The position numbers and the translations under genes are program-made. Positions 31,949 through 63,312 of a DNA stretch of 64,000 bases are shown here, piece by piece. Source of the stretch: Kiloniellaceae bacterium (lineage in GTDB: Bacteria; Pseudomonadota; Alphaproteobacteria; Kiloniellales; Kiloniellaceae); assembly GCA_009377535.1 (NCBI GenBank), contig WHTV01000004.1, positions 25,351-89,350 of the forward strand. Direction: 5' to 3'. Numbering within the stretch: position 1 is the first letter of the stretch; the number at the start of each line of letters is the position of its first letter. The notes beneath the pieces are model-generated. The model was not told the origin of the DNA. It saw only the letters and a list, made by a program, of their open reading frames with translations, and made no database searches.

Positions 31949-31952
<4 letters not shown>
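30888..31952 (-). CDS. ytfT: Sugar ABC transporter permease, YtfT-like
   Basis: LLAIGMTLVIATKGIDLSVGAVMAIAGAVVA; SLLGGRFSIVASLLGAMIIQSINTGILLSGFPPEFNLIIKA. Confidence 0.87.
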
Positions 31953-33475
<1,523 letters not shown>

Positions 33476-50381: not shown

Positions 50382-50882
50382 TCAGAAAGCCGCCGAACGC
50401 AAGAGATACATGAAATAGCGCCCCGCCTGTACGTCGGGCGGGAGCGCGACGGCGTCCGCGGTCGGCAGATATAGTTCCTGGTCCGAAACGACAATGCCGC
50501 CGGGGGCCACGAACTAGGTGAGCTTGGTGGAGATCATGGCCGCCGTGCAGGCGTCGCGCACCGCATGACCGCTGCCGAGGTCGGCATGTGCCAGGGCAAC
50601 CGTGCCGGCAAAGCGGCTCAACGCCCCATCCAGCGTTTCCTCAATTTCCCCCTCGAATAAATGTTCCGCATCCGGAATGCAATCGACGTGGGCGGAGACC
50701 CGGCGCTCGAAGACGAAGATCTCGCGGTCGGGGTAGGATTCGCGCAGATGATCGTACGTACGTCCGTTGCCGAGTCCGAGCTCGAACACCGGCCCGGGCA
50801 GATCCCGGACCAGGCGGATCGCCAGGTTGAGGCAATCGCGCTGGGCCTGCAGACGCCGCAGGACGCTGTCCAGGCGGCTCAA
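50382..50882 (-). pseudogene. Class I SAM-dependent methyltransferase interrupted by an in-frame TAG
   Basis: FELGLGNGRTYDHLRESYPDREIFVFERRVSAHVDCIPDAEHLFEGEIEETL...ISTKLT-[TAG]-FVAPGGIVVSDQELYLPTADAVALPPDVQAGRYFMYLLRSAAF-TGA; frame preserved after the stop at 50514-50516. Confidence 0.8.
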
Positions 50883-51328
50883 CGCGCCGCCTGGACTTGA
50901 CGCAGTTGAGCCGTTGTCTGCTCCAGACGATGCGCCAGCACGCGCATCACCTCTACGCCCATCTCCGGAAACTCCATGAGCATGCGTAGGAACAGATCCG
51001 ACGTGATCCTGAGGGTGGTGAGCTCCGTTTCGGCCTGCACCGTGGCGGTGCGCGGAATATCGCAGAGAATGGAAATCTCGCCGATGATTTCGTTTTCCGA
51101 CAGTGAGGCCACCCTGAGGAGGCCGTTGTCGGCATCGATCAACACGTCGGCGGTGCCGTGCAGCACGATGAATGCGGCGTCGCCCCGCTCGCCCTGTCTG
51201 AACAGCATCTGTCCCGGCTTATAGGTCACCCGCTCGCTGGCGAAGGCCATGAGCTTCAGTTTGGCCGGGTCGATCTTCGCGAAGATCGGAATGCGCCGCA
51301 GGATCTCAACCTCCTGGTCGATACTCAT
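50879..51328 (-). CDS. Stand-alone cyclic nucleotide-binding domain protein
   Basis: LRRIPIFAKIDPAKLKLMAFASERVTYKPGQMLFRQGERGDAAFIVLHGTADVLID...LSENEIIGEISILCDIPRTATVQAETELTTLRI; no HTH. Confidence 0.93.
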   Translation of the reverse strand: MSIDQEVEILRRIPIFAKIDPAKLKLMAFASERVTYKPGQMLFRQGERGDAAFIVLHGTADVLIDADNGLLRVASLSENEIIGEISILCDIPRTATVQAETELTTLRITSDLFLRMLMEFPEMGVEVMRVLAHRLEQTTAQLRQVQAAR

Positions 51329-51421: not shown

Positions 51422-54130
51422 TTACTCGGCGGCGACAAGTTCCTTGAAGGTGGAGTCGCGCCCGGTCAGCTCCTCATAGCTGCCCTGCTCGACGACACGA
51501 CCGTCGCGCATCACAAGAATGCCGTCAAAGAGCACGGCCATCTCCGGGCGGTACAGCGTCCAGATCACGCCCTGCCCGCGACGCAGGTCGAGGATGCGTT
51601 CGAGCAAGCGATTCTGGGCACTGCCGTCGAGCACCGAGACCGCCTCGTTGACGACCAGGATGTCGGGGCGTTTCAGCAGAGCGCGGGCGATCGCCAGCTT
51701 CTGTCGCTGCACCGAGTTCAGCCGCCCGCCGCCGATGCCCACATTGTAGTCCAGGCCGGCCTTGATGACGGTCTCGCGCAGCCCGAGATCGTCGAGCAGC
51801 TCCGCCAGGGCATCGCCGATGATCTGCTCGGCGCCGGCCTGCCCGAAGGCGAGTCGGCCAAACAAGATGTTGTCCTGCAGGGAGGCCGCCGCGTTGTAAG
51901 CATCGGCCCGGTAGAGTTCCACCGCAGCCGGCGAGTCGCGTTCCAGGCGTTCGGCCAGTCGCTGGCGCGCCTTCACCAGGCGTGCGGCCATGGCATCGTC
52001 GACCAGGCCGAGGCGGTGGCGCGCCTCGACGTAGTTGAAGGGCAGGCCGAGCAGCAGGTGGCGCGCCGTCTCATCGAGCGCGGCGACCCCCGCCTTGTCG
52101 ACGCGCCCGACAATAGCGCTGAATTCCGGCAGATCGTCATCCCCGATGAAGCTGAACTGTTCGAAGAAGGGATGGCCGGGCGGCAGGTCGGCAAAGATCT
52201 CGACCATGGTCTTGGCGATGGTCGCGCCCATGCCGACGAGGTCGTCGACCAGTCCTTCCTCGCGCAGCACCGCCGCGACCGTCGGATTCTTCGCGAGCGC
52301 GCCCGAGGCGAAGGCTGGCACGCGCGGCGTGCCGAACAGCAGGTTCTCCGCGACGCTGGCATTGCGGTTGTAGCTGTCTTCCGCAAAGCGCACGACGAGC
52401 TCTTCGTTGCCGCTGTCGCGCAGCCGGCCGAGGAGGGCGGCGCGGGCACGCAGGATACCAGCGGCGGCGTCAGGATGCTGGAGTGGGTCGATGGTTCCGG
52501 TCAGCCCGAAGCGGTAGACGTCGCTTTTCAGCTCGACCACGGCCAATACCTCGATCAGCCGCGCGGTGATGTCCTCCGCGCCGCTGGCACCGGCCGCCTC
52601 GTAATCGATCCAGTCGGCCTTGATGTCGAACTCCGGATTGCCCGCCCGCCTGGCCTCCGCCAGTTCGGCCGCCGAGGCCCCGCTGCCGGCCTTGGCCGCC
52701 CGGAGCGGGCGGTGCTTCAGGCCATAGAGCAGATTGTCGCGCAGCGTGCCGGCGAAGTGGTAGGCGTTGGCGCCGACATAGGCGATGCGGCGGCCGGTAA
52801 CCGCCGTCGGCAGGCGATCGATGTCGCTGCCGTCGATGCGCAACGTACCGGAGCTTGGCGTCACCAGTCCGGCCAGCATGTAGCTCAGCAGATCCATGCC
52901 GCTGTCGTTCGAGCCGACGATGGCGACGTGGTCGGTGACACCGATGGCAAAGCTAGCAGCGCGCACCACAGGTAGAGCATTCTCGTCCAGCAGGGTGAGC
53001 GCTGAAGCGACGATCTCGCCCTTCAGCGGCGGGCCGGGATCGTTCTCAGGCGCCTCCCGGGCGGGGTCGATCAACTGCGGCGGCTGGAACTGGTCGATCA
53101 CCTGTTCGTACTTGATCTGCACGTCGAGACGCTGCTGATCCCAGTCGATCAGCTCCTTGATCGGCGACGGCAGATCCTTGTAGGCGGCGATCACGGCAAC
53201 CAGCGCACCAATGTCGAGGCGGCCGGAAATCGCCAACAGGCCGCCGCCAGCGTAGAACATGAAGGGCGTCAGCTGGGCGAGCAGGTTGTTGATGAACTTT
53301 ACGAAGAACTTGCGCTGATAGATCTCGAAGCGGATGTGGAAGATGCGCCCGAGGCGCGCGACCAAGTCGGCGCGCTCGAAGTTGGTGGTGTCGTGCGCCC
53401 GCACCTCGATGCCGCCGTCGATGATCTCGCCGATGCGCCCGGCCAGCTGGCGGGCGGTCAACTGGCGCTCGCGCCCGAGCTCCAACAGGCGCCGGCGCAA
53501 GCGGGGAATGAGGTAGGACTGGAACGCCACCACCCCAGCCGCCACCAGGCCGAGCCAGAACGACTGCACCATGATGAACAGCAGTGCCGTCGCCGCTTGG
53601 CCGCCGAGGAACAAAGGCGTGGCGAAGGCATCGCCGGTGAAACCGCCGAGCGGCTCCACCTCGTCCTTGATCATGGTCGCCATTTCCGAGGGCTTCACCC
53701 GCTTCAGATGCGGCAGCGGGAAACGCAGAATGCGATCGGCAAGATCGAAGCGCAGGCGCCGCAGCAGGCGTTCGCCCAAGCGACCCTTGCGGGTGTTGAT
53801 CACCAGCTTGAACATGCCGTTGACCATGACCAGCGCCAGGAACGAGAAGCTGAGCGCCAGCAGCATGTCCTGCTGCACCAGGTCGAAGCCGCCGAACAGC
53901 GTCACCTGACGCCCGAAGATCTCCTCGCCGAAGGGCAGGTCCGCCGCCAGGAAAGGCTGGGTCGATCCCGGCTGGTCGAAGCCCTGGCCCTGGATGCCTT
54001 CGTTGACGATCTGCTTCGGCAGGTTGAGGGAGAGGTAGTAGAACGGCAGCGAGACGGCCACGAGCAGCAGAATGATGAGCTGCTCTGCCCGGCTGTGGCG
54101 CCAAACGTACTTGAAGATGTTAGGTTCCAT
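51422..54130 (-). CDS. ABC exporter-like protein (TMD + degenerate NBD with large insertion)
   Basis: Six-TM exporter domain; NBD alignment VAIVGSNDSGMDLLSYMLAGLVTPSSGTLRIDGSDIDRLP; IGGGRLNSVQRQKLAIARALLKRPDILVVNEAVSVLD; WTLYRPEMAVLFDGILVMRDGRVVEQGSYEEL. Confidence 0.9.
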   Translation of the reverse strand: MEPNIFKYVWRHSRAEQLIILLLVAVSLPFYYLSLNLPKQIVNEGIQGQGFDQPGSTQPFLAADLPFGEEIFGRQVTLFGGFDLVQQDMLLALSFSFLALVMVNGMFKLVINTRKGRLGERLLRRLRFDLADRILRFPLPHLKRVKPSEMATMIKDEVEPLGGFTGDAFATPLFLGGQAATALLFIMVQSFWLGLVAAGVVAFQSYLIPRLRRRLLELGRERQLTARQLAGRIGEIIDGGIEVRAHDTTNFERADLVARLGRIFHIRFEIYQRKFFVKFINNLLAQLTPFMFYAGGGLLAISGRLDIGALVAVIAAYKDLPSPIKELIDWDQQRLDVQIKYEQVIDQFQPPQLIDPAREAPENDPGPPLKGEIVASALTLLDENALPVVRAASFAIGVTDHVAIVGSNDSGMDLLSYMLAGLVTPSSGTLRIDGSDIDRLPTAVTGRRIAYVGANAYHFAGTLRDNLLYGLKHRPLRAAKAGSGASAAELAEARRAGNPEFDIKADWIDYEAAGASGAEDITARLIEVLAVVELKSDVYRFGLTGTIDPLQHPDAAAGILRARAALLGRLRDSGNEELVVRFAEDSYNRNASVAENLLFGTPRVPAFASGALAKNPTVAAVLREEGLVDDLVGMGATIAKTMVEIFADLPPGHPFFEQFSFIGDDDLPEFSAIVGRVDKAGVAALDETARHLLLGLPFNYVEARHRLGLVDDAMAARLVKARQRLAERLERDSPAAVELYRADAYNAAASLQDNILFGRLAFGQAGAEQIIGDALAELLDDLGLRETVIKAGLDYNVGIGGGRLNSVQRQKLAIARALLKRPDILVVNEAVSVLDGSAQNRLLERILDLRRGQGVIWTLYRPEMAVLFDGILVMRDGRVVEQGSYEELTGRDSTFKELVAAE

Positions 54131-54368: not shown

Positions 54369-55613
54369 ATGCAGGACAGCCGCAAAGGTAAGCGCGTCCT
54401 CATCTACAGCCACGACAGCTTCGGCCTGGGTCACCTGCGGCGTTGCCGCGAGATTGCCCATACCCTGGCTGACGCCCACAAATCGCTGTCGGTACTGATT
54501 CTTTCGGGCTCGCCCATCATCGGGTCGTTCGATTTCCGCGCCCGCGTCGATTTCGTGCGGGTACCGGGGGTGATCAAGCTGCGCAACGGCGACTACACCT
54601 CGCTGGCGCTGCACATCGATGTCGACCAGACCTTAGCGATGCGCGCCTCGATCATCGAACACACGGCCGAGTTCTTCGACCCGGACCTCTTCATCGTCGA
54701 CAAGGAGCCGCTTGGCCTGCGCGGCGAGGTGGAGGCCACCCTGGCGATGCTGCGCGACCGCGGCACGCCCTGTGTGCTCGGTCTGCGCGACGTCATGGAC
54801 GAGCCCGGATTGCTGGCCCCGGAATGGGAGCGCAAGCAGGTGGTGCCGGCCCTGCAGCGCTATTTCGACGACATCTGGATCTATGGCCTGCCGCAGATCT
54901 GTGACCCGCTGGAAGGCATCGAACTGCCGGATTCCGTACGCAAGCGCATGACCTACACCGGCTATCTGAAGCGCAGCCTGCCCAAGGTGAGCCCCCACGT
55001 GGCGCTGGAAAAAATCAGCGAGCCTTACCTGCTGGTCACCGTCGGCGGCGGCGGCGACGGCGAGGCCATCATCGACTGGGTGCTGCGCGCCTACGAAGCC
55101 GACCCCAAGCTGCCCTTCCCGGCCCTCCTGGTGCTCGGGCCCTTCATGAACAGCGAGGCCCAAAGCGACTTTCAGGCCCGCGTGGCGCAGCTCGCCAAGG
55201 TGGAAGCGGTGACCTTCGAGACCCACCTGGAAAGCCTGATGGACCGCGCCATCGGCGTGGTCTGCATGGGCGGCTACAACACCTTCTGCGAGGTCCTGTC
55301 CTTCGACAAGCGCGCCCTGGTGATCCCGCGCACCGAGCCGCGCATGGAGCAGCACATCCGCGCCTCGCGGGCTCAGGATCTGGGCCTGGTGCGCATGCTG
55401 CGCGACGACGGTCGCCGCGATGCCCAGCTGATGGCCACCGCCCTGCGCAACCTGCCGCAACAGGGCCGCCCCTCGGACGTGGTGGTGCCGGGCCTGCTGG
55501 ACGGCCCGGCCAACGTGGTGCGCCTGTCCGAATACTGGCTGCAGCGCGGTTCCAGCAACCTGAGCGTCGCCGGGCCGGCCAGCACCGGACCGCGCAAAAA
55601 GAGACGACTGTGA
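54369..55613 (+). CDS. COG4671-like predicted glycosyltransferase (MurG/GT28-like fold), copy 1
   Basis: KRVLIYSHDSFGLGHLRRCREIAHTLAD; LFIVDKEPLGLRGEV; GVVCMGGYNTFCEVLSFDKRALVIPRTEPRMEQHIRA. Confidence 0.87.
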   Translation: MQDSRKGKRVLIYSHDSFGLGHLRRCREIAHTLADAHKSLSVLILSGSPIIGSFDFRARVDFVRVPGVIKLRNGDYTSLALHIDVDQTLAMRASIIEHTAEFFDPDLFIVDKEPLGLRGEVEATLAMLRDRGTPCVLGLRDVMDEPGLLAPEWERKQVVPALQRYFDDIWIYGLPQICDPLEGIELPDSVRKRMTYTGYLKRSLPKVSPHVALEKISEPYLLVTVGGGGDGEAIIDWVLRAYEADPKLPFPALLVLGPFMNSEAQSDFQARVAQLAKVEAVTFETHLESLMDRAIGVVCMGGYNTFCEVLSFDKRALVIPRTEPRMEQHIRASRAQDLGLVRMLRDDGRRDAQLMATALRNLPQQGRPSDVVVPGLLDGPANVVRLSEYWLQRGSSNLSVAGPASTGPRKKRRL

Positions 55614-55632
55614 CGCCGCCCATTCCCCTGCC

Positions 55633-56934
55633 ATGAGCGCGATTCCTGCCTCTGCAGATCGCCCGGCAGCGCCCGCTGTCGGTGTCCTTGCCGTGGTCCT
55701 CAAGGGCTATCCACGCCTATCGGAAACCTTCATCGCCCAGGAGATCCTGGCGCTCGAGCGGCGTGGCTTCGCCCTCCGCCTGATCTCCCTGCGCCAGCCG
55801 ACCGACCGCAAACTCCATCCGGTGCATGACGAGATTCGCGCGCCGGTGGGCTACCTGCCGGAGTACCTCTACCAGGAGCCACTGAGGGTGCTGCGCAGCT
55901 GGTGGCGCGCCCGGCAGCAGCCGGGCTACGCGCGGGCCCGGCAGGCCTTCCTGCGCGACCTCATGCGCGACCTGACGCCGAACCGGGTGCGCCGCTTCGG
56001 CCAGGCCTGCGTGCTGGCCGCCGAACTGCCCGCCGAGGTGACGCGGCTCTACGCCCACTTTCTCCACACCCCGGCTTCGGTCGCCCGCTACACCGCCTTG
56101 CTGACCGGCCTGCCGTGGAGCGTTTCGGCCCACGCCAAGGACATCTGGACCATCCCAGACTGGGAAAAGCGCGAAAAACTGGCGGAAGCCGAGTGGCTGG
56201 TCACCTGTACCGCCGTCGGCGCGGACCACCTGCGCTCACACGCCCCCGGGCCGGGGCGTGTCACCCTGCTCTACCATGGCCTCGACCTCGACCGCTTTGC
56301 CGCGGCGGCGGCCAAACAAAGCGCCCGCGACGGCAGCGGGCCCCATCCGGTGCGCCTGCTGTCGGTCGGCCGGGCGGTGGAGAAAAAGGGTTACGACCTG
56401 CTGCTGGCGGCTCTGTCCGCGCTGCCTGCCGGGCTGCACTGGCAGCTCACCCACATCGGCGGCGGCCCGCTCCGACCAGCATTGGAACGCGAGGCCGCTG
56501 CCCTTGGCCTGGACGGGCGCATCGCTTGGCGGGGCGCCCAGGCCCAGGCGGACGTGCTGGAGCAGTATCGCAGCGCCGACCTCTTCGTGCTGGCCAGTCG
56601 CATCGCCAAGGACGGCGACCGCGACGGCCTGCCCAACGTGCTGATGGAGGCGCAGAGCCAGGGCCTCGCCTGCCTCGCCACCCGGGTCGCGGCGATCCCG
56701 GAGCTGATCGACGACGGAGTGACCGGTGCCCTGGTGCCGCCGGAGGACCCGGCGGCGCTGGCCGCCGGGCTGACTCGGTTGATCGTCGACCCGGCCGAGC
56801 GCCAGCGCCTGGGGCAAGCAGGACAGCAGCGCATTCGCGCGGACTTTGATATGAAGGGGGGAATCGACACCCTCGTGCGGCTGCTGAGCCGGGCAGACGG
56901 CGTCGATTCGCTGCCCGGCAGAGCCGCCGAGTAA
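55633..56934 (+). CDS. Glycosyltransferase family 4-type protein
   Basis: GYPRLSETFIAQEILALERRGF; LYHGLDLDRF; RLLSVGRAVEKKGYDLLL; DGDRDGLPNVLMEAQSQGLACLATRVAAIPELIDDG. Confidence 0.92.
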   Translation: MSAIPASADRPAAPAVGVLAVVLKGYPRLSETFIAQEILALERRGFALRLISLRQPTDRKLHPVHDEIRAPVGYLPEYLYQEPLRVLRSWWRARQQPGYARARQAFLRDLMRDLTPNRVRRFGQACVLAAELPAEVTRLYAHFLHTPASVARYTALLTGLPWSVSAHAKDIWTIPDWEKREKLAEAEWLVTCTAVGADHLRSHAPGPGRVTLLYHGLDLDRFAAAAAKQSARDGSGPHPVRLLSVGRAVEKKGYDLLLAALSALPAGLHWQLTHIGGGPLRPALEREAAALGLDGRIAWRGAQAQADVLEQYRSADLFVLASRIAKDGDRDGLPNVLMEAQSQGLACLATRVAAIPELIDDGVTGALVPPEDPAALAAGLTRLIVDPAERQRLGQAGQQRIRADFDMKGGIDTLVRLLSRADGVDSLPGRAAE

Positions 56935-56961
56935 TCAGATCATTCCTAACCCGAAGCCATC

Positions 56962-58092
56962 ATGCGCATTGCGTTCTATGCTCCGCTGAAGCCGCCAACT
57001 CACAGCAACCCCTCCGGCGATCGCCAGATGGCCCGGATGATTGTGCAGGCCCTGGAGCAGGCCGGGCACGAGGTGGAACTGGCGAGCCGCTTCCGCAGCC
57101 GCGAAGCGCTGGGCGACGCGCGGCGCCTGGAGCGCCTGCAGCGCCTCGGCGACAGGCTGGCCGAGCGGCTGGTCCGCCATTACCAGGGCCTGCCGCCACG
57201 CCGACGCCCGCAGCTCTGGTTCACCTATCACCTCTACTACAAGGCGCCGGACTGGATCGGCCCCAAGGTGGCGCGGGCGCTACGCATCCCCTACGTGGTG
57301 GCCGAGGGCTCGGTCGCCTACAAGCGGGCCGGCGGCCCGTGGGCGGCGAGCCACCGCGCGGTCCTGGAGGCATTGGACCAGGCCGCCGCGGTGGTCACCC
57401 TGAACCCGCTGGACGCCAAGCTGATCCCCGACCAGAGCAAGGTGCGGGCGCTGAAGCCCTTTATCGACACCACCCCCTACGAGGCGGTCAGGCCGCTGCG
57501 TGCGGATTACCGCGCGGTGCTGGCCAGCGAGCAGCAGCTCGACCCCGACCTGCCGTGGCTGCTTGCCGCTGCCATGATGCGCCCGGGCGATAAGCTGAAG
57601 TCCTACCAGATCCTGGCCCAGGCACTGCGCGCCATCCCGGACATCCCCTGGCAGCTGGTCGTGGCCGGCGACGGCCAGGCCTACGACGCAGTGGTCCAGG
57701 GCTTTGGCTGGGCCCTGCCGGGACGTGTTCGCTTCCTCGGCCTGGTGCAGCCGGAGGTCATGCCGGCGCTCTACGCTGCCTGTGACCTGCTGGTCTGGCC
57801 GGCAGTCAACGAGGCCTTCGGCATGGTGTTGCTGGAGGCGCAGGCCGCCGGCATCCCCGTGGTCGCCGGGCGCAGCCCGGGGGTGGAGAACGTGGTGGCC
57901 GAAGGCATCACCGGGTACCTCAGCGACCCTGGACTCGCCACCTTCGCCGCCAGCGTACGCGAGATGCTGTCGCAGAAGGCAAGCCGCCTGGCCATGGGCG
58001 AGGCCGCCCCCCGGTTGATCGCCGAGCAGCACAGCATGCTGGCTGCCGCGCGCCGGCTGAACGCCATTCTGGAAGAGGCAAGCCGACGGTGA
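56962..58092 (+). CDS. Glycosyltransferase family 4-type protein
   Basis: MRIAFYAPLKPPTHSNPSGDRQMARMIVQALEQAGHEVELASRF; NEAFGMVLLEAQAAGIPVVAGRSPGVENVV. Confidence 0.9.
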   Translation: MRIAFYAPLKPPTHSNPSGDRQMARMIVQALEQAGHEVELASRFRSREALGDARRLERLQRLGDRLAERLVRHYQGLPPRRRPQLWFTYHLYYKAPDWIGPKVARALRIPYVVAEGSVAYKRAGGPWAASHRAVLEALDQAAAVVTLNPLDAKLIPDQSKVRALKPFIDTTPYEAVRPLRADYRAVLASEQQLDPDLPWLLAAAMMRPGDKLKSYQILAQALRAIPDIPWQLVVAGDGQAYDAVVQGFGWALPGRVRFLGLVQPEVMPALYAACDLLVWPAVNEAFGMVLLEAQAAGIPVVAGRSPGVENVVAEGITGYLSDPGLATFAASVREMLSQKASRLAMGEAAPRLIAEQHSMLAAARRLNAILEEASRR

Positions 58093-58691
58093 GCCGGCTG
58101 CTGCTCATCCGCCACGGCGCGACCGACTGGAATGCGGCGGGGCGTATCCAGGGCCGCAGCGACCAACCGCTGTCGCCGGCCGGCCGCAGCGCCGTCGCCA
58201 CCTGGGGGCTGCCGCCCAACGCCGCCGGCGCGCGCTGGATCTGCAGTCCGCTGGTCCGCGCGCGCGATACCGCTGCGATCCTGCACGCCGGCCCGGTGGA
58301 GACCGAGCCTTGCCTCATCGAGACCGACTGGGGGGCCTGGGAAGGCCGGACCCTTATGGCCCTGCGTGCCGAGCTGGGCGCCGGGATGGCCGCGCAGGAA
58401 GCCCGCGGTCTCGACTTCCGCCCGCCCGGCGGCGAGAGCCCGCGCGACGTCCAGGACCGCCTGCGCCCGCTGCTGGCAAGCTTGGCGGAAGCCGCTGACG
58501 ACGTGGTAGCAGTCACCCATAAAGGCGTGATCCGTGCCGTCTACTCCCTGGCCAGCGGCTGGGACATGCGCGCCGAGCCACCGCAGAAGCTGACCGATGC
58601 CTGCATTCAGGTCTTCGCCCTGGTCCCTGGCGGCGCGCCGCGCATCGAAACCCTCAACCTGCCCCTGCGCGTCACATGCCGCACGCCATGA
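58089..58691 (+). CDS. Histidine phosphatase (phosphoglycerate mutase-like) family protein; GTG start
   Basis: SRLLLIRHGATDWNAAGRIQGRSDQPLSPAGRS; RHG motif; VVAVTHKGVIRAV. Confidence 0.92.
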   Translation: MSRLLLIRHGATDWNAAGRIQGRSDQPLSPAGRSAVATWGLPPNAAGARWICSPLVRARDTAAILHAGPVETEPCLIETDWGAWEGRTLMALRAELGAGMAAQEARGLDFRPPGGESPRDVQDRLRPLLASLAEAADDVVAVTHKGVIRAVYSLASGWDMRAEPPQKLTDACIQVFALVPGGAPRIETLNLPLRVTCRTP

Positions 58692-59881
58692 ACACGCGCG
58701 CCGACGTCCTGCTCTACGTGCAGCACCTGCTGGGCATCGGCCATATCCGCCGCGCCGCGGTGCTGGCCCGCGCCTTCCACCGCGCCGGGCTGAAGGTCGT
58801 CTTCGTTACCGGCGGGCTGCCGGTGGGCGGCCTTGAGTTCGGCGGCGTCGAAGTCGTGCAGCTGCCACCCGCGCGTGCCCAGGACGACCGTTTCGCCGTC
58901 ATCCTGGATGCGAGCGACCGGCCGATCGACGAGGCCTGGAGGGCGCGCCGTCGCGACCTGCTGCTGGAGGTCTACCGTCGCACCTGCCCGCGTATGGTGA
59001 TGACCGAGCTGTATCCCTTCGGCCGGCGCAAGATGCGCTTCGAGCTGGACCCGTTGATCGAGGCCGCGCGCACCGACGACCCGCCGGCGCTCATCGCCTG
59101 CTCGCTGCGTGACATCGTGAACCGGCCGGGCGACGCCGGGAAGACCGCCTGGATGGTCGATCGCTTCACCCGTCAGTTCGATCTGCTCTATGTCCACGGC
59201 GAGCCGCGCCTGTTCCGCCTCGAGGACTGTTTTCCGGAGAGCCCCGCCGTGGCGGAGCGCCTGCACTACACCGGCTACGTGACCGAGGCCGCCCAGGCGG
59301 TAGCCGCCGCGCGGGCGAGCCGGGTCGACACCGGCCCCGGTCAGCCGGGAAGCGGCGAGGTCATCGTCTCCGCCGGCGGCGGCGCAGTGGGGGCCGCGCT
59401 GCTGCGCTGCGCCCTGGCCGCCCGATCCCTGTCGCCGCTGGCCGAGGTCCCCTGGCGCCTGCTGATCGGCCCCAACCTGCCAGAGCCCGACTTTCGGGCC
59501 ATCGCCGCGGCAGCGCCAGCCGACGTCACCGTGGAATATGCGCGCAGCGACTTCGTGCAACTGCTGACCCGCGCCCGGCTGTCGATCAGCCAGGGCGGCT
59601 ACAACACCCTGATGGAGGTGCTGGCCAGCGGCGTGCCCGGCGTCGTGGTGCCCTTCGCCGGCGGCGCCGAGACCGAGCAGGCCCAGCGCGCCCAGGTCCT
59701 CGCCGCGCAGAATTTCATTACCGTGGTCGACGAAGCGCGCCTCGATCCCGCGCAGTTGGCGGCCGGCATCGAACGTGCCCTGGCCCAAGGGGGCGCCCGG
59801 GGCAAGGCGCCCCTCCGCATGGACGGCGCCGAGGAGACTGCGCGCCACCTGATCGCCCGACTGAAGGAAGTTGCGGCATGA
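58688..59881 (+). CDS. COG4671-like predicted glycosyltransferase, copy 2
   Basis: ADVLLYVQHLLGIGHIRRAAVLARAFHRAGLKVVFVTGG; ARLSISQGGYNTLMEVLASGVPGVVVPFAGGAETEQAQRAQ. Confidence 0.88.
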   Translation: MNTRADVLLYVQHLLGIGHIRRAAVLARAFHRAGLKVVFVTGGLPVGGLEFGGVEVVQLPPARAQDDRFAVILDASDRPIDEAWRARRRDLLLEVYRRTCPRMVMTELYPFGRRKMRFELDPLIEAARTDDPPALIACSLRDIVNRPGDAGKTAWMVDRFTRQFDLLYVHGEPRLFRLEDCFPESPAVAERLHYTGYVTEAAQAVAAARASRVDTGPGQPGSGEVIVSAGGGAVGAALLRCALAARSLSPLAEVPWRLLIGPNLPEPDFRAIAAAAPADVTVEYARSDFVQLLTRARLSISQGGYNTLMEVLASGVPGVVVPFAGGAETEQAQRAQVLAAQNFITVVDEARLDPAQLAAGIERALAQGGARGKAPLRMDGAEETARHLIARLKEVAA

Positions 59882-60699
59882 CCGGCGGCGAGACCGGCGC
59901 CTGGCAGCAACTCGAGCGCGAACTCGGGGCCTGGGCCGCGGCCAGCCGCCAGGCGGAGATCTGGTGGCGCGACGATGATGCCGGCGCGCCCGGCCCAGCC
60001 TTCGAGCGGCTGCTGGCCGTCGCGGCGGCGAGCCGCGCGCCGCTCGCCCTGGCGACGATTCCGGCCAGGGTGGAGCCCGCCCTGGCCGAGGTTCTGGAAA
60101 TCCAGGCCCCCGGTGCCGTCGTGCTGCAGCACGGTTACGCCCATGCCGATCATGCAGCGGCGGGAGCCAAGAAATGCGAACTGGTCGACCCGGCAAGGCG
60201 TCCGACGATCATGGACGAGCTGCGCCAGGGCCGCGCGCGGCTGGCCAGCCTCTTCGGCGCCCGCTTCCGGCCTGTGCTGGTGCCGCCGTGGAACCGCATC
60301 GACCCGGTCCTGCTCCCGCAGCTGCCCGCCCTCGGTTTCACGGGGCTGTCGACCTACACGGCCCGCACCGCGGCAACACCGGTCGTGGGCCTGCGACAGG
60401 CGAACTGTCATGTCGACATCCTGGAGTGGCATCCGCAGCGCCGATTCCTCGGGACGCGGGCGGCGCTCGAGTTGCTGGCCGGTCATCTCGCCGCCCGACG
60501 CCTGGGTAAAGTCGATGCCGCCGAGCCCAGCGGCATCCTCACCCACCACCACGTGCACGATGCAGCAGCCTGGGATTTCCTTGCGGAGTTGCTGGACCGC
60601 CTGGCGCGCCACGCCGCCGTGCGTCTGCTGTCGGCGCACGAGGTCTTCGCCAAGCCAACCGCCGACCGGCAGGCGACAGCAGGGGAGACGAGGGCGTGA
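59878..60699 (+). CDS. Polysaccharide deacetylase (NodB)-like protein
   Basis: EIWWRDDDAGAPGPAF; VLQHGYAHADHA; VLVPPWNRIDP; GILTHHHVHDAAAW. Confidence 0.83.
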   Translation: MTGGETGAWQQLERELGAWAAASRQAEIWWRDDDAGAPGPAFERLLAVAAASRAPLALATIPARVEPALAEVLEIQAPGAVVLQHGYAHADHAAAGAKKCELVDPARRPTIMDELRQGRARLASLFGARFRPVLVPPWNRIDPVLLPQLPALGFTGLSTYTARTAATPVVGLRQANCHVDILEWHPQRRFLGTRAALELLAGHLAARRLGKVDAAEPSGILTHHHVHDAAAWDFLAELLDRLARHAAVRLLSAHEVFAKPTADRQATAGETRA

Positions 60700-61302: not shown

Positions 61303-63312
61303 GTGCGGGATTTGCTGCGCATACGGGATCTGCGGATCAGCTTCGTGCTGCCGGAAGGTCGTCTCGAAGCCGTCCGCGGCGTGAGCTTTCGCGTGCCCGC
61401 CGGCAAAACGGTGGCACTGGTCGGCGAGTCGGGCTCCGGCAAATCCGTGGTCAGCCAGGCGATCATGGGCATCCTGCCGCGCAGCGCGCGCATCGATGCC
61501 GGGCGCATCCTGTTCCACGACCCGGTGCTGGCGGCCGATCGCGCCGAGAGCATGATCGACATCACCGGCCTCGCCCCCGACAGCCCGCAGATGCGCGCCA
61601 TCCGCGGCGCGCGCATCTCCATCATCTTCCAAGAGCCGATGACCTCGCTGTCGCCGGTGCACACCGTCGGCAACCAGATCCACGAGGCGCTGCATCTGCA
61701 CCGCGATGTCAGCAGCACCGAGGGGCGCGAACTGATCGAGGAGATGCTGCACCTCGTCGGCTTCCCCGACCCGGGCAAGGCGCTGAAGACCTATCCCTTC
61801 GAGCTCTCCGGCGGCCTGCGCCAGCGCGCCATGATCGCCATGGCCCTGGTGTGCCGCCCGGCACTGCTGATCGCCGACGAACCGACGACGGCGCTCGACG
61901 TCACCATCCAGGCGCAGATCCTGAAGCTGCTCAAGGACCTGCAGGCCGAACTCGGCATGGCCGTGCTGATCATCACCCACGACCTCGGCGTGGTCGCCAA
62001 CCTGGCCGATGAGGTGGTGGTGATGTACCACGGCGAGGCAATGGAGAGCGGCACCCTGGAGGACATCTTCCGGGCGCCGCAGCATCCCTATCTGAACGCG
62101 CTGCTGCGCGCCGTGCCGCGCTTCCACATGAAGCCGGGCGAGCGCCTGGTGCCGATCCGCGAGATCAAGCAGCAGGACGACGACGCCTTCCTCGGCAAGG
62201 CGAACGCGCAGGCCGGCACGGCGGCCAGGCAGCGCGCCGGCGCGGTGCAGGATACCCTCCTCAAGGTCGCGCACGTCAGCAAGCGCTTCACCATCCGCAC
62301 GTCCGGCCTCTTCGGCAGCGGCGGCGACGCCGACAGCCTGCTGGCGGTCGACGATGTGAGCTTCACGGTGCAGCGCGGCGAATGCCTCGGCCTGGTCGGT
62401 GAAAGCGGCTGCGGCAAGACCACGCTTTCCAAGACGATCCTGCGCGCCCTGCAGCCCGACAGCGGCAGCATCACCTTCACCGACTGCGCCGAGGACGGAA
62501 GCCGCGAGGAGATCGATGTGCTGGCGCTGACCGGCGACGCATTGATGGCGTTCCGCAGGAAGATCCAGTTCGTCTTCCAGGACCCTTTCTCCTCGCTCAA
62601 TCCGCGTATGACCGTGGGCGAGATCCTGGCCGAACCGCTGGTCATCCACGGTATCGGCACGCCGGCAGAGCGGCGCCGGATTGTCGAGGAGCTGATGGCC
62701 GTGGTCGGCCTCAACCGCCAGCACATCCGGCGCTATCCGCACAGCTTCTCCGGCGGCCAGCGCCAGCGCATCGGCATCGCGCGCGCCTTGGCGCTGCGCC
62801 CGCAACTGCTGATCTGCGACGAGCCGGTCAGCGCCCTCGACGTATCGATCCAAGCGCAGGTTCTGAACCTGCTGAAGGATCTGCAGCGCGACCTCGGCCT
62901 CACCTACATCTTCGTCAGCCACAACCTCGCGGTGGTCGACTACATTGCCGACCGCATCGCGGTGATGTGCCGCGGGCGGCTCGTCGAATTGGCGCCGCGC
63001 GAGCTGTTGTTCCGCGCGCCGGTGCATCCTTACACCAAGGCCCTTCTGGCGGCCGTCCCGGAGCCGAGTCTGGAGCAGCGCCTCGATCTCAGCGCGCTGA
63101 TGGAGGGCCGCGCCTCGCAGCCGGATGCCTGGCCGGAGCCTTTCCGCATCGACGGTGAGGGCCACCTGTCGATGATCGACCTCGGCGGCGGCCACTGGGT
63201 GCGCGCGAGCGACACGGGCGCAGCGCAGCTCGAGCAACAGTACAGGCAAGCGCAGCTAAGCGGCGCGGCCGCCCACGGGATTCTAGACGGCGAAAACCTG
63301 ATGCCATGCTGA
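61303..63312 (+). CDS. Peptide/nickel-type ABC transporter ATP-binding protein with two fused NBDs (GTG start)
   Basis: Two Walker [13 protein letters not shown] and [27 protein letters not shown] and [23 protein letters not shown] / HPYTKALL. Confidence 0.94.

Follow-up and report, generated by a model that had tools for sequence, protein, structure and literature searches.

A Family of ABC Exporter-Like Membrane Proteins With a Degenerate, Probably Non-Hydrolytic Nucleotide-Binding Domain and a cNMP-Binding Partner in a Glycosyltransferase Locus

Gene Organization of the Locus

The window analysed here is a stretch of 64,000 nucleotides from the genome of a Kiloniellaceae bacterium (contig WHTV01000004.1). 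Its minus strand carries an operon in which a gene for a pseudo-ABC exporter (51422..54130), specifying a transmembrane domain (TMD) and a pseudo-nucleotide-binding domain (pseudo-NBD) with an insertion, is followed by a gene for a protein with a cNMP-binding domain (50879..51328) and, in third place, by a Methyltransf_17 gene (50514..50882; PF12692, E 6e-44), which was found in 28 of the 80 loci of the family that were compared. The methyltransferase gene has an in-frame stop at codon 123, the coding frame seems to run on past the stop (after codon 122), and its relatives usually specify about 162 aa; it is possibly a recent pseudogene, or a sequencing error.

Upstream of the ABC gene, a divergently transcribed cluster on the plus strand (54369..60699) encodes a PF04101-type glycosyltransferase, two GT4-type glycosyltransferases, a histidine phosphatase and a MurG-like glycosyltransferase, as well as a deacetylase-like protein recognised by a weak match. 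The locus is a conserved glycosyltransferase cluster, with the MurG-like glycosyltransferase family present in 63 of the 80 loci, the deacetylase-like gene in 29, and the Methyltransf_17 gene in 25-28. A common gene order was seen on pSymB of S. meliloti (peptide importer, glycosyltransferase, GT4, MurG-like glycosyltransferase, methyltransferase, ABC, cNMP), and the corresponding locus on a Mesorhizobium plasmid also includes genes for a nucleotide-sugar dehydrogenase, an MBL hydrolase and an adenylate/guanylate cyclase. Adjoining the glycan cluster of the window is the gene of an oligopeptide-type ABC importer ATPase (61303-63312, plus strand), and roughly 30-37 of the 80 loci have homologous importer genes close to the family gene.

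Just past the right end of the window and about 11 kb away from the ABC gene, a class III adenylate/guanylate cyclase gene (G000:C262:90830-92158, minus strand; L315:3831-5159) adjoins a gene for an MBL-fold hydrolase. The same genome encodes 15 class III cyclase domains. A link between cyclase and the ABC/cNMP locus is only suggestive, with a cyclase gene found within 8 kb of the family gene in 11 of the 80 loci.

Fold and Domains of the ABC Protein

The open reading frame of the ABC gene runs for 902 codons without interruption. Pfam detected ABC_membrane (PF00664), corresponding to the TMD at residues 1-350 (53081..54130, minus strand), and a split ABC_tran domain (PF00005), with no match to a C39 peptidase anywhere in the 902-aa protein. 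An AlphaFold2 model built with 121 homologues as input (pLDDT 89.3, pTM 0.83) was compared with the PDB by Foldseek and returned the type IV exporter fold, a six-helix TMD followed by an NBD in one chain, with PCAT1, MsbA and TM287/288 as neighbours (E about 1e-16; TM-score up to about 0.6 on target length). The alignments spanned about 900 columns over targets of 570 residues, as expected of an exporter with a long insertion. Of the NCBIfam profiles MsbA (TIGR02203) matched best, at E 2e-45, a match that falls far short of the curated cut-off. A preliminary description made from the sequence had proposed an ABC exporter homologue with a dismantled NBD; the Pfam and Foldseek results bear out the fold, and each of the motif readings given there proved exact.

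Loss of the Catalytic Consensus

The degenerate motifs are spread over both halves of the NBD, all on the minus strand: Walker A at residues 406-413 (GSNDSGMD; 52892..52915), where the Ser/Thr position 413 is Asp; the Q-loop region at residues 451-456 (YVGANA; 52763..52780), with Ala at the Gln position 454; the signature at residues 804-808 (LNSVQ; 51707..51721); Walker B at residues 824-829 (ILVVNE; 51644..51661), with Asn for Asp; and the H-loop at residues 857-862 (WTLYRP; 51545..51562), with Tyr for His at 860. Six catalytic residues were scored (Walker A Lys and Ser/Thr, Q-loop Gln, Walker B Asp and Glu, H-loop His), and the Walker B Glu is the sole survivor among them in the window protein, which does not carry the functional-ATPase consensus of type IV exporters (Walker A K[S/T], Gln, LSGGQ, Asp and Glu, His).

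This loss is family-wide. When 206 distinct full-length homologues were aligned, not one had all six residues and one had five, while at most three are kept in 197, at most two in 153, and none in 53; these homologues share the architecture, and the canonical motif set that would have reduced the case to simple decay was found in none of the 206. The preliminary description had asked whether the individual Walker losses are conserved, and here the answer was divided. The replacement of Walker A Ser/Thr by Asp/Glu (173/206) and of Walker B Asp by Asn (144/206) are the steadier changes, and the commonest family pattern is GxxGSGK[E/D] with a Walker B Asn; the Walker A Lys position is variable (K in 109/206, R in 38/206), its loss being an additional change in the genus of the window protein. 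Near-canonical members also exist, one with GSSDSGKS and VVDE. From these alignments we infer that the family has probably lost ATP hydrolysis, but since some members are close to canonical, they may still bind ATP, and a few may hydrolyse it slowly.

Several homologues come from genomes titled Betaproteobacteria, Burkholderiales, Rhodoferax or Nitrosomonadales (L107, L111, L113, L119, L121, L128, L136 and L158), and in several of these the Walker B Asp is kept and the Walker A acid lies one residue later.

The residues that persist raise the question of a nucleotide that is bound without being cycled. ATP might act as a structural or regulatory ligand of a homodimer without normal Mg2+ coordination, the Walker A acid compensating for the Walker B Asp. 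The retention of the P-loop glycines (191/206 and 196/206), the D-loop Asp (193/206) and the signature Gln (181/206), together with a Lys in more than half of the members, would suit such a role, as would the fact that an acid at 413 and an Asp at 828 seldom occur together (Fisher p 3e-13, raw counts, 206 homologues). When phylogeny was considered, however, this association was only suggestive (0 pairs the same way against 3.5 opposite, p 0.125), and a charge swap between Walker A and Walker B forming a compensating Mg2+ site was retained solely within this reading. The Lys, moreover, was lost repeatedly (25 changes on the family tree), and a divergent group with a fused cNMP domain has no recognisable P-loop. 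An ATP-binding, non-cycling homodimer is considered unlikely.

The Insertion and Its Triple Repeat

Between the two halves of the NBD lies an insertion (residues 471-744; 51899..52720, minus strand) that, on repeat comparison, consists of two extra partial helical-subdomain units. The recurring motif proposed in the preliminary description is present three times, at residues 457-470 (YHFAGTLRDNLLYG; 52721..52762), 587-600 (YNRNASVAENLLFG; 52331..52372) and 745-758 (YNAAASLQDNILFG; 51857..51898), again on the minus strand, and the same insertion with three copies of YNxxA[ST][LV]x[ED]N[LI]LFG occurs in all 206 homologues. The motif Asn is nearly invariant (Asn466 in 203/206, Asn596 in 206/206, and Asn754 along with Gly758 in 206/206). 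Profiles of segments 447-586, 577-744 and 735-830 were compared with column-shuffled controls, and scored 45 (first against second), 36 (first against third) and 73 (second against third), the controls reaching no more than 22. These scores and the conservation of the motif Asn indicate that the three copies are more than chance.

The suggested internal duplication of the helical subdomain was thereby upheld, and the unit is larger than the motif. It comprises a strand (IAYV, LVVRF or AVELY), the motif, and a helix pair (xVLxxxxLxxxVxxxGL), the helix 'ExLxxVxL..V..GL' coming after the motif, and units one and two have in common a further long helix and strand ('ILxARxxL...VExFD'). In our reading, the repeat is part of the helical subdomain, present three times, with a recognisable signature helix in the last copy only. 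Identity of the insertion with a known separate domain was ruled out, as a model of the region by itself, with short flanks (pLDDT 91.6, pTM 0.78), gave no PDB match below E 0.2.

Distribution and Selection

The family is mostly alphaproteobacterial. Among close relatives, a match was found in 36 of 41 genomes, one of them partial, and a class-wide sample gave full-length homologues in 131 of 385 genomes; the 31 matches of a phylum-wide sample all fell in the same class, yet some of the named loci are binned as Betaproteobacteria. A search of the open-access literature found no publication on the family, which is widespread in bacteria and apparently undescribed. In S. meliloti, the homologous ABC reading frame is broken in the Rm1021 reference (L230, NC_003078.1) and intact in strain 2011 (L231), and the broken frame may be one reason why the gene escaped notice.

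Every part of the protein is under purifying selection and maintained, given that median dN/dS between close pairs was 0.042 in the TMD, and that both NBD halves and the insertion had values of 0.072-0.078. A decaying or mis-sequenced gene in the window's genome might have been suspected from the in-frame stop of the neighbouring methyltransferase gene and the broken S. meliloti 1021 frame, but in all seven further genomes of the genus included in the search the ABC gene is intact, and the low dN/dS (0.04-0.08) and the 206 full-length homologues rule out decay or sequencing error, leaving this explanation a negligible probability. The opinion that the gene is not obviously decaying, offered earlier from its open frame, was supported.

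The distribution of conservation within the protein is inverted. A functional ATPase exporter is expected to have an NBD better conserved than its TMD, and MsbA from 20 of the genomes shows this pattern (NBD 8.5 identity points above TMD), whereas in the family from the same genomes the TMD stands 17.9 points above the NBD and is the best-conserved section of the protein. The weight of selection now falls on the membrane part instead of the ATP engine.

The cNMP-Binding Partner

The partner gene encodes a protein of 149 aa with a cNMP-binding domain (PF00027, E 5.7e-19) and an intact phosphate-binding cassette (GEISILCDIPRTAT), including the Gly, Glu and Arg. A cNMP gene lies directly downstream of the ABC gene in all 80 named loci. 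Among 205 homologues, 186 have it downstream and 12 carry it as a C-terminal fusion (198 together), while the remaining seven comprise one with too little DNA and six in which no cNMP gene was detected. Homology joins the fused domains to the cNMP protein of the window (up to 42% identity, E 5e-44), and a single change on the tree suffices to account for the fusion. The cassette is strongly conserved in the separate proteins (Gly 81/81, Glu 78/81, Arg 81/81), and Gly and Arg are present in all 12 fused domains. Judged by its residues, the pair has parted with the consensus for ATP hydrolysis and retained that for cyclic-nucleotide binding, and the cNMP protein is predicted to bind a cyclic-nucleotide signal. 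The ligand may be something other than a cyclic nucleotide, because the cNMP-like domain of HetC binds ppGpp (PMC10986499).

Relatives Without an NBD

The closest TMD relatives found have no NBD. In two genomes there is an NBD-less protein, 389-453 aa long, whose identity to the TMD of the window protein is about 39-40% (blastp); along with a third NBD-less TMD protein, these (L288:3829-4995, L289:3837-5195, L301:3546-4781) adjoin cupredoxin, CopA and CopB genes. More distant TMD-only reading frames, about 312-400 aa long, occur here and there across the class; divergent examples (L302-L310) are solitary ABC TMD proteins in varied contexts with no adjacent exporter NBD, and for most TMD-only genes no exporter NBD was found in the DNA nearby, although a partner may lie farther off. 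In a TMD search of 289 genomes, all matches at E <= 1e-25 fell in reading frames of at most 425 aa or at least 876 aa, with none in an exporter of normal size (426-860 aa). A TMD tree placed the family and the TMD-only proteins apart from canonical exporters (support 99), with the copper-locus proteins inside the family's 100-support group and the other TMD-only proteins outside it; finer placement is unsure, since the canonical branches are long. These relatives, the cNMP partner and the glycan-locus setting were all absent from the preliminary description.

These data bear on whether the protein is the degenerate half of a heterodimeric exporter, similar to TM287/288 or TAP, with its canonical subunit encoded elsewhere. 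Strong degeneration within a kept fold is known for heterodimer halves and for Pdr5 NBS1 (PMC7756269), and the window's genome encodes other exporters. In such systems the consensus-site partner is usually specified by an adjacent gene, but within 8 kb of the 80 loci the conserved neighbours include the cNMP gene and no exporter gene. Nor does the window hold a canonical exporter NBD, the ATPases examined besides the ABC protein being of importer types (31949-33475 and 61303-63312), which agrees with the earlier remark that no partner NBD is nearby. A TMD of the family clade was found on no canonical exporter at E <= 1e-25, and in this protein the Walker and signature halves are both degenerate in one polypeptide. 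That the protein is half of a heterodimer seems improbable, although a partner NBD may be encoded elsewhere in the genome.

The same TMD-only proteins are relevant to a non-transporting scaffold, in which the ABC fold would do no more than sit anchored in the membrane and give glycosyltransferases and the cNMP protein a place to dock, offering no substrate path. An enlarged helical subdomain and glycosyltransferase neighbours would suit a platform, but it is the TMD rather than the pseudo-NBD that is best conserved, and relatives reduced to a TMD persist in copper loci, which suggests that it is the membrane part that does the work. A pure scaffold is rated quite unlikely.

Proposed Function

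The preferred reading, to which we give about an even chance, is a membrane component with the ABC fold, controlled by cNMP and probably non-hydrolytic, in a machine for glycan synthesis or export. A family of membrane proteins with the ABC exporter fold would have given up ATP hydrolysis while retaining its six-helix TMD, the NBD becoming a pseudo-NBD as the residues for phosphate and Mg2+ disappeared and part of the helical subdomain came to be present three times. In ordinary exporters the helical subdomain contacts the coupling helices. The protein would form a dimeric ABC-fold membrane body lacking an ATP cycle, and the cNMP-binding protein, fused in one lineage, would bind a cyclic nucleotide or similar ligand through its intact cassette, dock on the enlarged pseudo-NBD and switch the TMD. 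Within a locus for glycan synthesis or export, the ABC protein would then most likely serve as a signal-controlled gate, a flippase-like path or an assembly platform for glycosyltransferases. The combination of a lost ATP site, a tripled motor part and near-constant pairing with a cNMP protein suggests a membrane gate that is signal-controlled rather than ATP-driven. A wider proposal, that a lineage of ABC-exporter TMDs freed from ATP, with a pseudo-NBD or none, constitutes a cyclic-nucleotide-gated conduit or flippase moving glycan without ATP hydrolysis, is tentative and somewhat doubtful.

ABC transporters are defined by their ATP engine, and to our knowledge CFTR is the single well-known example of an ABC protein turned gated channel. 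If the preferred reading is true, the family would show the ABC fold rewired from an ATP-driven pump to a signal-controlled device, and might tie cyclic-nucleotide signalling to the cell-surface glycans of rhizobia and their relatives. A testable system exists in strain 2011 of S. meliloti, an easily studied symbiont.

Comparison With Known Systems

The window protein shares the fold of TMD and NBD with the type IV exporters MsbA, PCAT1 and TM287/288, but its family differs from these in lacking an intact motif set, in an insertion of about 270 residues with a triple repeat, in a TMD that exceeds the NBD in conservation, and in having a cNMP partner. Pdr5 NBS1, TAP, TM287/288, CFTR and MRP1 have comparable replacements in Walker A, Walker B, signature and H-loop; the likeness is striking in Pdr5 NBS1, where the Lys is lost, His is replaced by Tyr and the signature reads LNVEQ, and degenerate ABC sites of known transporters still bind ATP (PMC7756269). 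Those transporters pair a degenerate with a consensus site, whereas in the family degeneration reaches all the motifs of a single polypeptide, and the neighbouring genes include no canonical partner.

HetC-type exporters resemble the family in linking an exporter fold to a cNMP-type sensor domain. In HetC itself the sensor is N-terminal and needed for function, and the protein also has a C39 peptidase and an ATPase with an essential catalytic residue (PMC10986499). In the window family, by contrast, the sensor sits at the C-terminus or on its own, no peptidase was matched and the ATPase consensus has gone, so the window protein lacks both the peptidase and the intact ATPase that mark the HetC/PCAT type. 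The NBD-less proteins of the copper loci (L288, L289, L301) and the divergent ones (L302-L310) belong to the same TMD clade as the family and have a conserved 'EPxGGF' segment in common, seen in translation, but at 312-453 aa they have no NBD at all, unlike the window protein.

On pSymB the homologue from S. meliloti maps to about 842-845 kb, and the msbA2 operon, with the SMb21188 fragment, at 938 kb (PMC3687685); identity or orthology with S. meliloti MsbA2 was ruled out by this different position and operon. The glycan ABC exporters and flippases PglK, NdvA and MsbA2 are ATP-driven, unlike what is proposed for the window family, but like the window protein they have an exporter fold and are encoded in a glycosyltransferase locus.
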